Source: Lichenostomus cassidix (lineage: Eukaryota > Chordata > Aves > Passeriformes > Meliphagidae). From it: DNA of 64,000 bases. The stretch's first letter is position 1, and the number at the start of each line of letters is the position of its first letter. The DNA lies in the NCBI GenBank assembly GCA_008360975.2, contig CM039210.1, positions 17,879,007-17,943,006 of the forward strand, written 5' to 3'. The position numbers and the translations under genes were made by a program. The notes under the pieces are model-generated. The model saw nothing but the letters and a program-made list of their open reading frames with translations. It was not told where the DNA came from and ran no database searches. Positions 13,978 through 59,431 of this stretch are shown piece by piece.

Positions 13978-14261
13978 ATGTTTAATAGGGGCCACTGTGA
14001 AAAGCCACTCCTCAAACTGACTTGGCTTACAAGTAAACCTGTTTGGGTGAGCCAGTGGCCCTTCTCAAAAGAGAGGTTTCACCAGGCCTGGATTCTCATA
14101 CAAGAGCAACTACAATTGGACCACATAATGCCTTCCACTAGCCCATGGAATACAGCTTGTTTTGTTATCCCTAAGATATTGGAGAAATGGGGGCTTTTAC
14201 AGGATCTCAGGGCAGTTAATGCGGTAATGTCTACTATGAGACCATTACAACCGGGACTACC
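13978..14261 (+). pseudogene. pol: ERV-K1 reverse transcriptase, fingers part
   Basis: Class II RT start with VWVSQWPFSKERF, the STSPWNTACFVIPK segment and the LLQDLRAVNAVM motif. It is interrupted at 14262 by a 3.9 kb non-autonomous provirus and resumes at 18162. The TSD at the interruption (ACTACC) lies in the GLP codons of RT. Confidence 0.88.
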
Positions 14262-14467
14262 TGTTGAAGTTGTTAGTTTCTGCGATGGTATGGCAGCCCG
14301 CAGACCTTACTGGAGAGCGTCTCTGCCCAGCCCAGGTAAATGCCTCAGTGCACCCAACCCTCCCTCTGAGGGCTGGTCACTGCGCTTCCACTGGCCGGGG
14401 AGCCAAATGGCTAGCTCTGGTTCCATCTGCACTTTGCAACACAACGGCAATAAAGGAGGTGAGAAGG

Positions 14468-14733
14468 TGTTGCTGTTGAACCGCTAGCAGAGAGAAGAAG
14501 TCCAGTCTTCAGTGTGGCAAAAATGTCTGTTTTTATCAATTAATTTCAACTTATATAGACTTTCAAAGGTCACTCAGATTGGTCGGTTCAAAACCTCCCC
14601 CCAGGCCGATTGGCCAGGCTTGAATTGTTCATATCTTGAGACACTGTTTCAACAACATCCAAACTTTATCTTTGTTTATAAAACACAGGAAGAAGAGAGA
14701 AAAATTTCTCACGGGAAAGGTCTGCTCACCACA
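14468..14733 (-). repeat. Solo LTR-D, copy 2
   Basis: 266 bp, TGTTGCTG...CTCACCACA, with a perfect 6-bp TSD AGAAGG (14462-14467 and 14734-14739). It sits inside the 3' LTR of the non-autonomous provirus and resembles copy 1 (5453-5713) throughout, including the inverted TATA region (about 14560). Confidence 0.92.
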
Positions 14734-14867
14734 AGAAGGGTCTATGCATGATGACCATGGGAGTTGGTTATTTACATGGTCACCAGATGGTCACAGAGAC
14801 AGAAGACCTCATGCAAAGACCTTGTGGATGCAAAGACATCCACATACAAAGACCTCATCATGGCGAG

Positions 14868-15616
14868 TGTCTTACAGGGGAAAGACAAGGAGTTATGCAT
14901 TTCTGCTGTTTGCTCAGGCTTTTAGCAACAGGCAGTGATTTTTATTAGGGTGGCTAACACCCCAAGACTCGGTCTTGTTCGCAAGGGCCTTTGATATTTA
15001 GCTGATTAGTCTCATATGATAGAAATTACCATTTATTAGACACAGAAAATAAACAGACATACAAACATAGAACAGATTTACATACATAGAACAGATTTAC
15101 ATACATAGAACAGATTTACATACATACACAATAAAGACATAATTGCAAAACTATAATAGCTAAAATGCAATTATGGAAAGATACCTATTCTTATTATTAT
15201 TAGCTAGTAAGAATAATAAAAACTTAAGAATTCAATGTATCTTACCTGCCAATTGGTGGTAGAAAACACGTCAAAATTCTTTTAACCCAATTCCCTGGAA
15301 AGTAACCACAGAGTCTGCGTCCAGACTCTGGGGAGAAGCTTCTCCACATATCTTCAGAGTGTGTGTAAGAAACCTCTACCTCTGGGATAGTTCTGTTAGT
15401 TTTTATAGGATAAAAGTGTGCCTTGTGTGGTCATCAAGCATAGTTTTTGTTTGTTTTCCCACATTCGCTCTTCATTTCAAAATATAAGTTACGATTAGAG
15501 GCTTAAGACTTTTGGGTGCCAAGAGATAACCCCTGCCAGGTTGTTAACCCAACTGGATCATCTATCTTCCTCAACTGAGCAGAGAGAGAGAGAAGGGGGG
15601 GGACTGTCCTGCCACA
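14868..15616 (-). repeat. Solo LTR-E, copy 1
   Basis: 749 bp beginning TGTCTTAC and ending CTGCCACA on the plus strand, with a perfect 5-bp TSD GCGAG (14863-14867 and 15617-15621). An AATAAA on the minus strand near 15034 gives the orientation. It contains a 22-bp unit (ACATAGAACAGATTTACATA core) repeated three times at about 15062-15125. Copy 2 is at 18550-19278. Confidence 0.9.
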
Positions 15617-15839
15617 GCGAGGGGTCGAGGGTTTTCGAGAGAGATGGGGGGGTGGGGACAGTACATTGGCCCAGTGATCTCTGGGCACAGGGGCAGTACA
15701 TGGGCAGAGTTAAAGTATAGGAACCAATAGGGAAAATCCAAGGGAGTGGCCAGGGCCAGGGTGGGAAATGCAGCACAATAGGAGAAGGGTAGACATATAA
15801 GGAAGAAAGGGGTGGGGAAATACAGCTTGTATCACAACA

Positions 15840-17575
15840 TTTCCCCATTTACCAAATTGAAGAGGGAAGGGTTTTTCCCAAAAAGCCTTACAGCAAATTT
15901 TTATACAACAGAAAAATGGTAAAATAATGCAGAATAATTAAAATTATACAGATGAATGCTTAGCAAGTTTAAAACAACAACATAATATAAAGCAATAACA
16001 AAATTGTTTTTTCTGTGGATATGGGAAACTAAAATGATGATGCGGCTGTCTGGTATTGACGTTGGAGATCAGTGCAGGCTGAATTTTCAGACTGCGGTTG
16101 TTTTTGCAGTCTCTTTGCATTTTTGTGTTTTTTTCTTCTGCCAGGGTTGATAAGATGAAGGCGGAGTTTGCAGCAGTGATGGGGTTCCCGTCCGAAATCT
16201 TTTCCAGCTTAGGAGGGAGATGAGTGTCTGGACGCAGCACAGCCCTGCCGGGTGAAACATAGCTCTTGCCCGCCACGGCTCTCCGGGTCTGGCGCAGTTC
16301 CACTGGACGAAACACAGCTACCGCTTTCTGCGGCTCTACCGGGTCTGGCGCAGCCCCACTGGCTCCTGGCACGGCTCCAGGGGCCATCCCAGTATGGCCC
16401 CATCAGGCCCCGGGGGTCATGTCTGCCGCGAGCAGTTGGAGGAACGGCCCTGCCCCACGCCCAGGCAGTGCCTGCTCGTGGCCAAGAGGGAACGCACTGA
16501 AAGGAAAGGTGGGGAGAGGGGCCCGACACTGAAGGGAAAGGCCCCGAAGGGGAGGAACCTGCGCCTGAAGGAAAACACCCCAAAGGAGAGGGGCCCACAC
16601 CTGAAGGGAACGCCCACCGACGCAGGGGGAGGGGCTCACACCGGAACACCAGCGACGCAGGGGGCGGGGTTTCGGAAAGCCCAGGAAAATTTGAAGGGGA
16701 AGAAGAAGGCAATATGACGTGCTCGACCATGCAGCCAGCGCCATATTGCAAAACATGTGGAGTCGGCTCGGCTGAGATTGGGGCATGGGGAAAGGGGTTT
16801 GCAGGGATCCCGAGCCGTAGTGATCAGTTCCAACTCGGGAAGGGGACGGAGGACACTGAAAAACATATGGTCAGCTCTCTCCTGAGGGACAGAGGGGGAA
16901 CATGAGCTGGTGGGGGAGGGGGATGTGGCATGTTAGGGAATACATAGGGGAGGAAAGGTGGTTATTTAGGAGAGAACCAGGATTTTTTCATTTCTAGATA
17001 ACTAAATAGAACAAAACAAAGGTTAATTCACTTTATCCCTCACGCGCAAAAACTTTCCCCACAACTGCTGATTCCCCATGCCTTATAAAAGACGGCTAAT
17101 CTTAAAAGAAAAAGTTCTCCCAAAATGGGGGTACTAAACTTAGGTCTTCTCTTGTTAGAGGTGGGTTTTTTCTTGTTGAGGCTTTCTATGAGGTGCGACT
17201 TCTTTCACCTTGACAAAAAGCCACTTCCAACCCTACATCCACCCTGAGGCAAAAAGAATAAACTAAAAAGAAAAAGGAGACCCCCGTACCAAGCCAACCA
17301 GGACTCCACTGGCTCCCCTGCCACAGGGGCTTTCCAGCAGGCTTACCAAGCATGGAGAATCAACATAAAGCACTTGGGATGGTCTGCCGCCCTTCGGCCG
17401 ACCTTCTTGGAAAGCGCAACTTTCTTACAAAGGCTATCCGGCCACCCCTTCGGTCTTCTCGCTGAAATGGCGAGATTCTCATGGGGGAAATGGCTTCCCA
17501 AAAGTGACTTCTCTCCTGCAGCAGTGGCTGCAGGAGACGCCTTCCAGGGCAGCTGTTGCCGGATATTGGGCGCCA
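15840..17575 (-). mobile_element. Non-autonomous provirus copy 1, internal region
   Basis: About 1.74 kb between the two LTRs with no recognisable gag, pol or env on either strand. On the minus strand it starts with TGGCGCCCAATATCCGGC (17575-17558), a primer binding site close to the tRNA-Lys-type TGGCGCCCAACGTGGGGC seen in copy 2. It ends at the polypurine-like tract. The middle (16200-16700) is GC-rich and includes about three imperfect copies of a 45-50-bp unit at 16505-16620. Several open frames there (for example 180 codons at 16209-16751, minus) are compositionally biased and I do not trust them as genes. Copy 2 is 57787-59425. Confidence 0.8.
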
Positions 17576-17577
17576 TT

Positions 17578-18155
17578 TGTTGCAGTTATAGTTCTTTGCG
17601 GTGGTATAGCAGACCTGACCCGAGAGCATCTCTGCCCGGCCTGGGTAAGTACCTCACTGCACCAAACCCTCCCTCCCAGGGCTGGTCACTGAGCTTCAAC
17701 TAGCTGGGGAGCCGAATGGCTAGCTCCAGTTCCGTCTGCTGTTCACAATGTAGTGGCGGTAACGGAGGCAAGAAGGGTCTATGCATGACGACCACAGGAG
17801 TTGTTTAATCACATGGTCACCAGATGGTCGCAGAGGCAGAAGACCTCATGCAAAGACCTTGTGCAAAGACATCCCTGGTGCAAATACCTCGTGGATGCAA
17901 AGACATTGGGATGCAAAGACCTCATCATGGCGAGGGGTCAGGGGTTTTCTATAGAGACAGGGGGGACAGGGACAGCACATTGGCTCAGTGATCTCTGGGC
18001 ACAGGGGCAGTACATGGGCGGAGTTAGGGTACAGGAACCAATAGGGAAAACCCGAGGGAGTGGCCAGGGTCAGGGGTGGGAAAGGCAGCGCAATAGGAGA
18101 AGGGTAGACATATAAGGAAGAAAAGGGGTGGGGAAATACAGCTTGTATCACAACT
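17578..18155 (-). repeat. Non-autonomous provirus copy 1, 5' LTR
   Basis: 578 bp, TGTTGCAG...ATCACAACT on the plus strand, separated by two bases from the primer binding site. The whole element 14262-18155 is bounded by a perfect 6-bp TSD ACTACC (14256-14261 and 18156-18161) within the ERV-K1 reverse transcriptase. A CCAAT box on the minus strand near 18037 is shared by the other LTR copies. Confidence 0.88.
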
Positions 18156-18161
18156 ACTACC

Positions 18162-56577: not shown

Positions 56578-57161
56578 ATGGAATCAGAGGTAGCCCAAAT
56601 TTTATTGTTATGCTTTTTAGAAAAGCACGGACTCAGTAAAACTGCCCTATCACACTTAATGGGCCTGATAGTGGTAGGACAAGCTTATGGATTTTTTACA
56701 AATCCTATTACAGTATTCAGTGTGGGAGAGTGGTTGAATTACGGAGCTGTTTTGCTTTTGGACTGTGATAAAATTGCAAGAAAGCTTGGCAAACCATGGA
56801 GTAAAGTTGTAGCCTGCTTACAAATACATGCCACAAAGCAAAACCTTACGTGGCTCACGGCACAGGGCATAACAGCTGCATGGAGCGGAGAAAAATCTGT
56901 GAATTACTGTGCCGCTTTTAATATGCGTAAAACTTCGGCAGCCGCGGCACAGCCAGGGAAGCCCCCCCCGCCAGGGAGGGGGGGGAGAGAGAGCACGCCG
57001 TGCCGCTGCTGGTAGCCGAGAATACAAAGTTACTCGATTGGATGAAAAATCTGTTCCTGTTAGAACGAGCTCAGATATCGCGGGTAAAGAAACAGAGTAA
57101 CCAGAAATCATCCCGATGTTACCGATGCGGGAGTGGGGAACATATAATAAAAAACTGTAAT
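56578..57161 (+). pseudogene. gag: ERV-A gag: matrix and first zinc knuckle
   Basis: A 145-codon frame starts MESEVAQILLLCFLEKHGLS and looks like an alpha/betaretroviral matrix domain (KPWSKVVACLQIHATKQN near residue 80). Soon after a proline/glycine-rich stretch the frame shifts. From 57000 a second frame reaches a CCHC knuckle (CYRCGSGEHIIKNC, 57119-57160). No capsid or major homology region lies between, so the gag is reduced to matrix plus nucleocapsid. It is interrupted at 57162 by a provirus-like insertion. Confidence 0.78.
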
Positions 57162-57786
57162 TGTTGCGGTTTAGAGGATGTTACAGCAGACTTTACCCTA
57201 AAGCTTCTCTACCCGGCCCAGTTCAGCGCCTTAGTGCTCCAAACCCTCTGTCCCAGGGCTGGACACTGCGCTCTCACCGGCCGGGGAGCCATAAGGCTAG
57301 CTCTGGTTCGTCTGCTTCCACAACTGGCGGTGATAAAGGAGGCGAGGAGGGTCTATGCGTTGTGTCCATGGAAGATGTTTATTCGCATGGTGCAGCAGAG
57401 GCCAACGACCTCCCCGAGGCAGAGATGCCTCGAGGGCGAAGGCCTCACATGCACAGCCACATGTGGAGCATAGACACACGTGGAGCATAGACAGCAAGAT
57501 GGCGGAGGGTAAGGGGTTTTATAGGGAAACAGAGAGGGGCAGGGACAGCACACAGGCCCAGTGACCTCTGGGTACAGGGGAGGTACAGGGGCGGAGTTAG
57601 GAGTACAGGAACCAATAGGGGAAACCCGAGGGAGTGGCCAGGGCTACGTGGGGTTAGGGTACAGGAACCAATAGGGAAAACTGGGGGCGTGGCTAGGACC
57701 ACATGGAGTAGGGAAGGCAGGACAATAGGTGACAAGTACAGTCGTTAAGAAAGGGGTGTGGGGAACTTGCAGCCATTATCCCAATA
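57162..57786 (-). repeat. Non-autonomous provirus copy 2, its only LTR
   Basis: About 625 bp, TGTTGCGG...ATCCCAATA on the plus strand, homologous to the LTRs at 14262-15839 and 17578-18155. It is the 3' LTR of a minus-strand element. TSD TGTAAT lies directly to its left (57156-57161). Confidence 0.88.
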
Positions 57787-59425
57787 TTTCCCCATTTTTT
57801 ACTAAATTAAAGAGGGAAAGGCTTTTCCTAAAAACATTCATAGCAAATTTTTAAACAACAGGAAAATGGTAAAACAACATAATGTAAAGCAATAACAAAA
57901 TTAGTTTTGCTGTGAGTATGGGGAAAACGATGATGCAGCTGGCTGATTTTGATGTTGGAGTTTAGTACAGGTTGAATTTTTGGACTGCAGTCATGTTTGT
58001 AGTCTGTTTTTCTTTTGCTGGGGCTGCTAAGATGAAGGCAGGGTTTGCAGCAGCAACGGGGTTGTCACCAAAGTCTTTCTCAGCTTAGGAGAGGGAGAAA
58101 ACTTTGGACGCAGCGCAGCTCCACTGGGTGACACACAGCTCTTCCCTGCTGTGGCTCTGCCGGGTCTGGAACAGTTCCACTAGGCCCCAGCACGGCCGGA
58201 CGGCAGCACAGCTTCAGGGACTGCTCTGGCGCAGCTTTACTAGGCTCTGGGGGCAGTGTCTGCCGCGGGGAGCTAGAGGTGCAGCCCCACCGGCTCCTCC
58301 GAGCCTGCCGCGGGCAACTGGAGGTGCGGCTCCGCTCCCGGCCAGGCTATAGCTGCTTCTGGCTGAGAGGGAACATCTGAGAGGATGGGAGGAGGGGCCC
58401 GCACCAAAGAGAAATACTCAGATGGGGAGGGATCCGCGACCGAAGGGAGCGCACACCGACGCGGGGGGAGGGGCTACAACGGAACACGAGGGATGCAGGG
58501 GGTGGAGCTCCGGCAAGCCCGGGAAAATTTCAAGGGGAAGAAGACAACATGGCGTGCCTGACCATGCGGCCGGCGCCATATTGGAAAACACGTGGAGTCA
58601 GCTCGGCTGAGGTTTGGGGCACAGGAAAGGAGGTTAGCAGGGATCTCGAGTTAGAGTGATCAGTTCTAACCCGGGAAAGGGACAGGAGAGGCTGAAAAAT
58701 GTACGATCAGCTGTCTCCTGAGGGACAGAGGGGGAGCACGAGCTGGTGGAGGAGGGGGTGCCACCAACACATGGTCAGCACCATGTTGGGGGATACATGC
58801 AGGGGAAGGTGGTTATTAGGGAGAGAACAAGGGTTTTTCACTGCCAGATAACTAAATAAAACAAAACACAGATTAGTTTACTTTATCTCTCGCGCGCAAA
58901 AACTTCCCACACAACAACTGATTCCCCATTCCTTATAAAATATGTCTAATTTTATAAGAAAAATTTCTCCCAAAATGGGGGCACAAAACTTAGGTCTCCC
59001 CTTGTTAGAAGTGGGTTTTTTCTTGTCGAGATTTCACATGGAGCGCGACTCCCTTCACCTCGACAAGACACCACCTCTAACCCTCCACTCACCCCGAGGC
59101 AAAAAGAACAAACTAAAAACAAAAAAGGGACCCCCGTACCAAGCCGACCAGGCCTCCACCGGCTCCCCTCCCAAGGGGCTTTCCAGAGGGCTTACCAAGC
59201 ACGGAGAATCAAAAAAAATCACTCGGGATGGTCTACCGCCGTTCGGCCGACCTCCTTGAAAAGCGCGACTTTTTTCCAGAGGCTACCAGCCGCCCCTTCG
59301 GTCTTCTCGCTGAATGCAAGCTTCTCGTCAGGGAAATGGCTTCTCAAATGCGACTACTCCCCTGCCGCAGTTGCGGCTGCAGGGGGACGCTTTCCAGGGT
59401 GGCTTCTGCCCCACGTTGGGCGCCA
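57787..59425 (-). mobile_element. Non-autonomous provirus copy 2, internal region ending at the primer binding site
   Basis: About 1.64 kb, homologous to 15840-17575 along its length, with no recognisable gene. On the minus strand it begins exactly with TGGCGCCCAACGTGGGGC (59425-59408), a tRNA-Lys-type primer binding site. No LTR lies beyond it; the next bases are the target duplication TGTAAT (59426-59431). The element is therefore PBS-internal-LTR, bounded by a perfect 6-bp TSD. Confidence 0.87.
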
Positions 59426-59431
59426 TGTAAT

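Follow-up and report, generated by a model that had tools for sequence, protein, structure and literature searches.

How a retrovirus-like element with a single long terminal repeat (LTR) can lie within an intact target-site duplication, its other end being formed exactly by the primer-binding site (PBS), is the question raised by a locus of the bird Lichenostomus cassidix (Meliphagidae), located in the 64,000-nucleotide stretch of contig CM039210.1 that was analysed (positions 17,879,007 to 17,943,006 of assembly GCA_008360975.2; hereafter, the window). The first-pass annotation of the window described a one-LTR copy reading PBS-internal-LTR on the minus strand between two perfect TGTAAT hexamers, and direct reading confirmed both this order and the coordinates (Table 1). 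The focal element is a PBS-ended retrovirus-like copy of 2264 bp (57162-59425) inside a 6-bp duplication; its sense strand begins with the PBS TGGCGCCC, which we take to be of the Lys-tRNA type, and closes with ...CAACA. It lacks the AA that normal copies of the family have between LTR and PBS, and the purine-rich tract adjoining U3 is, by its presumed role, the polypurine tract (PPT). At least 39 other places in the genome match the first 400 bases of the element with 98-99% identity among the matches listed, 40 of 906 candidates having been scored. A Pfam scan of the focal copy, restricted to minus-strand open reading frames (ORFs), found no domain at E <= 0.01 in the seven ORFs of at least 60 amino acids inside the internal region. 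Within the LTR, window positions 57593-57729 contain an imperfect duplication, about 80 bp long, at which copy L003 aligns differently.

The insertion site is a gag-like stretch of another endogenous retrovirus (ERV), in which two zinc knuckles had been proposed to flank the junctions. The left knuckle was recovered as a weak zf-CCHC match (Table 1); the right one, CX2CX4HX4C, was recognised by visual inspection of the listed ORFs, the right-flank piece of the host ERV having given no Pfam match. The further claim that both junctions are genuine integration junctions was borne out by C50:2361 and C343:9373, two host-ERV paralogues in which one TGTAAT is followed directly by 13 right-flank bases, and which thus show the empty site without any joining of window pieces. 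These were found with an AT-rich pattern allowing up to three mismatches, most of whose 66 matches besides the two paralogues are due to chance.

Table 1. Positions of the features at the focal locus, and of a related copy, in the window.
Feature	Position	Strand	Basis
Host ERV zinc knuckle (CCHC), extending to the insertion point	57114..57158	+	Pfam zf-CCHC, E 0.005, under the curated cut-off
Left target-site duplication, TGTAAT	57156..57161	.	Direct reading; single copy in two empty-site paralogues
Entire PBS-ended element, PBS-internal-LTR in minus-strand sense	57162..59425	-	Direct reading
Sole LTR, 625 bp, sense TATTG...CAACA	57162..57786	-	Boundary set from 30 of 30 normal copies examined (TATTG start)
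Presumed polypurine tract, sense AAAAAATGGGGAAA, adjoining U3 upstream	57787..57800	-	Direct reading
Internal region, no protein domain detected	57801..59407	-	Pfam
18-nt primer-binding site TGGCGCCCAACGTGGGGC, left end of the integrated DNA here	59408..59425	-	Direct reading
Right target-site duplication, TGTAAT	59426..59431	.	Direct reading
Related two-LTR copy	14262..18155	-	Perfect ACTACC duplications at 14256-14261 and 18156-18161

Searches of the whole assembly (about 1.10 Gb in 514 contigs) defined the normal form of the family. Normal copies carry two direct LTRs in the order LTR-internal-LTR (e.g., L079 and L080), with the PBS after the 5' LTR and the PPT before the 3' LTR; in their left part, an LTR closing with ...CAACA is followed by AA and then by the PBS TGGCGCCC, with a few base changes among copies. 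The two-LTR copy that the first-pass annotation had indicated elsewhere in the window is likewise real and related, with perfect duplications on both sides. The 5' (U3) end of the LTR was TATTG in all 30 normal copies examined and the U5 end is CA, so that the family departs from the standard TG...CA LTR ends in having TA, not TG, at its U3 end. Among 11 normal copies tested, the 6-bp duplication was exact in eight, showed a one-nucleotide offset in two and was absent in one (L079). The offset, of one base between the LTR end and the duplication, was seen in the normal copies L014 and L028 and hints at imprecise end processing. With its LTRs, PBS and PPT, a fixed duplication length and no gag or pol domain found in the focal copy, the family has the features of a non-autonomous LTR retroelement of the endogenous retrovirus type, and its Lys-type PBS and 6-bp duplication suggest a possible affiliation with betaretrovirus-like (class II) ERVs. 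L083 (C1:12173000-12176646) is a tandem array in which LTRs alternate with internal regions, recombination between copies being its likely origin. The contig of the window (C32, 24.1 Mb) makes up about 2% of the assembly, yet 14 of the 97 PBS sites in our first census map to it; this contig may be the W chromosome or another ERV-rich region.

The first-pass annotation had proposed a genome search for further PBS-ended copies flanked by duplications, and such a search yielded 19 more PBS-ended copies, 17 of the total of 20 having perfect duplications. In the first census, 97 family PBS sites with up to three mismatches were inspected one by one and L088 was set aside for an assembly gap before its PBS; eight of the remaining 96 had unrelated DNA directly before TGG in place of an LTR. 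A separate search on the PBS core added a ninth PBS-ended copy, L074. The duplications of these nine copies (GATCAG, GGGGTG, GAAAGG, CAGGGG, GTAGAC, CGGAAC, ATTACA in the focal copy, CCCTGT and AAAGAT) are all perfect; the copy with GAAAGG is interrupted by ERV sequence inserted later, past which its 3' end was located. A second PBS class, longer by one additional A (TGGCGCCCAAACGTGGGGC plus variants), accounted for most of the copies that an internal pattern had detected outside this list, and was found at 20 sites, of which 10 were PBS-ended and 10 had LTR-type sequence upstream, five of the latter (C4:94491308, C4:133957938, C8:20391515, C32:16613420 and C33:70161424) being scored on the seven bases before the PBS only. 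Two further copies with a small lesion in the PBS comprised one PBS-ended and one normal copy. Of the 11 PBS-ended copies in the extra-A group (the 10 plus the one with the lesion), eight have perfect duplications (ACTAGT, TTCTCT, AGCCCC, AGATTT, AAGGGG, AACCGG, ATTGAC and ATCACT), one matches at five of six positions (GGGAAT/GGCAAT) and one at four (CCCCCC/CCACCT). The remaining copy, C5:74207990, had no 3' end at the expected place.

Altogether, 20 of the 121 scored PBS-bearing copies of the family (96 + 1 + 20 + 2 + 2, the final two being the normal copies L145 and L148) are PBS-ended and have no 5' LTR (8 + 1 + 10 + 1); L088, L151, L153, L158 and L169 lie outside this count. The left end is the first base of the PBS in the 20 copies, L156 having one base missing inside the PBS. 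Perfect 6-bp duplications flank 17 of the 19 evaluable copies, all 17 being different and at 17 places, so the insertions are independent. The binomial chance of this outcome is about 1e-59, and since the combination of a PBS end with a duplication recurs in this manner, chance is excluded as an origin of the focal junctions as well; a one-off event, which had also been considered, was ruled out by the 20 copies of the census. Elsewhere in the data, L074 and L153 (C4:11305483 and 11316206) seem to represent the same PBS-ended insertion twice, about 10 kb apart and with nearly identical flank, L153 being likely a segmental-duplication copy of L074.

Two ways of obtaining such copies would start from ordinary proviruses or from element RNA. 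If two-LTR proviruses had later lost their 5' LTR by precise deletion, the focal duplication, which in the sense of the element ends in ACA, would share ATG as a brief microhomology with the AA-TGG junction. Deletion would nevertheless demand 17 events, each removing the LTR plus AA exactly while keeping a different perfect duplication; moreover, a repeat-guided deletion at the LTR/PBS junction would leave an A, and only one of the 17 duplications ends in A. A microhomology-guided deletion was rejected once G, C or T proved to be the last base of the duplication in other copies. The absence of the 5' LTR from the copies could also be explained by a LINE-type (target-primed) insertion of element RNA. 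We give this explanation next to no credence, as the copies begin with the PBS instead of R, have the U5 CA as their 3' terminus with the duplication directly after it and no poly(A), and are flanked by duplications of 6 bp.

Phylogenetic placement bears both on deletion and on the possibility that PBS-ended copies make up a lineage of their own, transposing as such. The tree had 47 entries, 39 normal and eight PBS-ended, the other 12 of the 20 PBS-ended copies being left out; three normal loci are present twice under two identifiers (L002/L033, L005/L011 and L079/L032), and L071 is represented by 948 bases only. The eight PBS-ended entries were scattered over several parts of the tree, and for seven of them the nearest neighbour was a normal copy. 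Because these PBS-ended copies lie among normal ones, precise later deletion is not credible, and we regard it as very unlikely. A separate lineage would be in keeping with the number of copies and with some local clustering, L071 and L072 being sisters and L069, L070 and L081 lying close together; however, the scattered positions, as read from eight of the 20 copies, argue against it. Loss of the 5' LTR is in addition an expected loss of the promoter, which a lineage transposing in this form should therefore be missing. We assign a slim chance to this explanation.

In textbook reverse transcription both strand transfers precede integration, and integrase is known to leave duplications of fixed length next to TG/CA ends. 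The PBS end carries TG/CA of the integrase type. The focal element, one of the 20 PBS-ended copies, was probably inserted by integrase with the second (plus-strand) transfer never completed. Minus-strand DNA would be copied to the end of the PBS of the genomic RNA and halt with ...GCGCCA-3'; the plus-strand strong-stop DNA, carrying the tRNA-copied PBS, would make no productive transfer, and the left LTR would never be synthesised. Joining to the target would then be carried out by integrase at two points spaced by 6 bp, one for the normal U5 end and the other for the PBS end, whose CA-3' would be used either as such or once a 2-nt tail had been trimmed off. The action of integrase, the failed second transfer as the decisive step and the form in which the left end existed are inferences; the first-pass annotation had already suggested that second-strand transfer failed and that integrase obtained its CA from the CCA of the tRNA, and both the census and the enrichment of the extra-A PBS lend support to that suggestion.

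As for this enrichment, the PBS-ended share was 10/20 for the extra-A PBS vs 8/96 for the 18-nt PBS (Fisher p = 4.7e-5, odds ratio 11), and 10/20 vs 7/73 when one strict PBS definition was applied to both classes (p = 1.9e-4). With the tRNA-Lys sequence assumed here, the extra A would presumably mismatch the priming tRNA and form a one-base bulge against the tRNA-copied plus strand. A pattern for the 3' arm of this putative tRNA-Lys matched three places in the genome, none with the extra base; ARAGORN, run at L190, the one of the three that was scanned, called no tRNA.

The same excess helps to weigh the remaining explanation, in which integrase opened completed DNA, either a 1-LTR circle or a linear molecule, at the LTR/PBS junction before integration. 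The end product would be identical, and the normal ...CA-AA-TGG-type junction, which varies by a few base changes, resembles a circle junction. The PBS of completed DNA, however, is at least half tRNA-derived, and enrichment of the extra A (10/20 vs 8/96) would be unexpected there; as for cleavage of circles, the accepted substrate of integration is linear DNA, not circular DNA. Since finished DNA cut at the LTR/PBS junction predicts no excess of extra-A copies, a failed second-strand transfer would appear to fit the excess better, and we judge cleavage of completed DNA unlikely. Alternatively, the excess could be due to some other property shared within an extra-A lineage, the extra-A copies and L109 lying outside the tree.

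As to why this family should be prone to using the PBS end, we hypothesise that the U3 end of its LTR is responsible. The normal U3 end is TA instead of TG and may be a poor substrate, so that a PBS end with CA would compete well and win more often. According to a review, integrase makes inefficient use of DNA ends with an altered CA (PMC3185654). This argument is weakened by work on Rous sarcoma virus (RSV), as a title cited in PMC5041404 reports that CA is not needed at the U3 end.

The specificity of the phenomenon was assessed by searching for other truncations and other families. An internal 30-mer gave 121 matches, 100 of them listed, among which 23 places were, by eye, absent from the PBS list. 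Twenty of these were fetched as 86-base pieces and comprised 10 PBS-ended copies with the extra A, six normal copies and four others, namely L151, which is degraded and has a 3' flank, TTATGT, that is not matched exactly on the other side, the segmental copy L153, and L158 and L169, without a PBS there. The last two (C76:4178813-4178898 and 1167757-1167842) contain the internal pattern with the PBS absent where expected, are identical over the 86 bases, and are possibly internally truncated or rearranged copies. Of the other three places, two recur in the extra-A census; C1:38126601 and the 21 unlisted matches fall outside this control, which is small, and other truncated insertions may therefore exist.

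Among 85 matches to the PBS core, six were the PBS-ended copies of this family and the other 79 had TT or CT before the PBS. A second scan for Lys-type PBS gave 497 matches, and all 100 listed end in TT or CT; one of these, C1:22830706 (L149), was fetched and allowed no clear assignment. A third scan gave 11 matches, nine of them normal copies of the family or a close subfamily, together with an ordinary variant (L146) and a tRNA-like sequence (L147). The latter (C32:1209410-1209530) could pair with the 3' arm of a Lys-type tRNA, CCA included, has no recognised LTR adjoining it and is possibly a tRNA pseudogene. No PBS-ended copy of another family with a Lys-type PBS was recognised among the matches listed in these scans, L149 being unclear and L147 tRNA-like, and a very narrow pattern for PBS-ended copies of the second element type of the window gave 0 matches.

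Several known systems share part of these features. With non-autonomous LTR retroelements and class II ERV relatives the family has in common LTRs, PBS, PPT, 6-bp duplications and no coding domain found; unlike them, 20 of its 121 scored copies start at the PBS and its U3 end is TA. Solo LTRs and 5'-truncated proviruses resemble the PBS-ended copies in missing one LTR; they arise from recombination or deletion and are not known to have a PBS start inside an intact duplication. In RSV, changes in U5 adjoining the PBS are reported to lead to aberrant integrations (Oh, Chang, Hughes and co-workers 2006, 2008; cited in PMC5041404), a likeness to the present case that extends to the dispensable CA at the U3 end. 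The RSV cases are apparently engineered mutants in culture, whereas the present class is natural, inherited, repeated and started at the PBS. LTRs starting with TA, not TG, are also found in TARE1 of tomato, a plant copia-type element, and the opening of its abstract makes no mention of PBS-ended copies (PMC3701649). In an HIV provirus, a complete LTR and other parts were lost next to an inserted tRNA-Gly copy, for which a post-integration deletion was proposed; the likeness lies in the missing LTR and in the link to a tRNA made by its authors, while in our copies no such insertion was seen and the duplications are intact (PMC12220202). Our search of titles and abstract openings found no precedent for natural PBS-ended insertions, which is weak evidence of absence given that most subscription literature lay outside its scope.

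Taken together, these independent genomic insertions resemble molecules halted before the second transfer was finished, which seem to arise more often with a naturally occurring variant of the PBS. We lean, by a modest measure, towards the broader reading that, in this family with a U3 end lacking the usual TG/CA, the PBS terminus would be a third end naturally used for integration, and that transcripts without a completed second transfer may integrate regularly (about one in six PBS-bearing copies), so that second-strand transfer would be dispensable for germline integration. The requirements of integrase for DNA ends, the failure rate of the second transfer, and the reason why the conserved CA matches the tRNA CCA are thereby made testable from genome data, and annotation pipelines that demand two LTRs, or that read one-LTR copies as deletions, would overlook the PBS-ended class.
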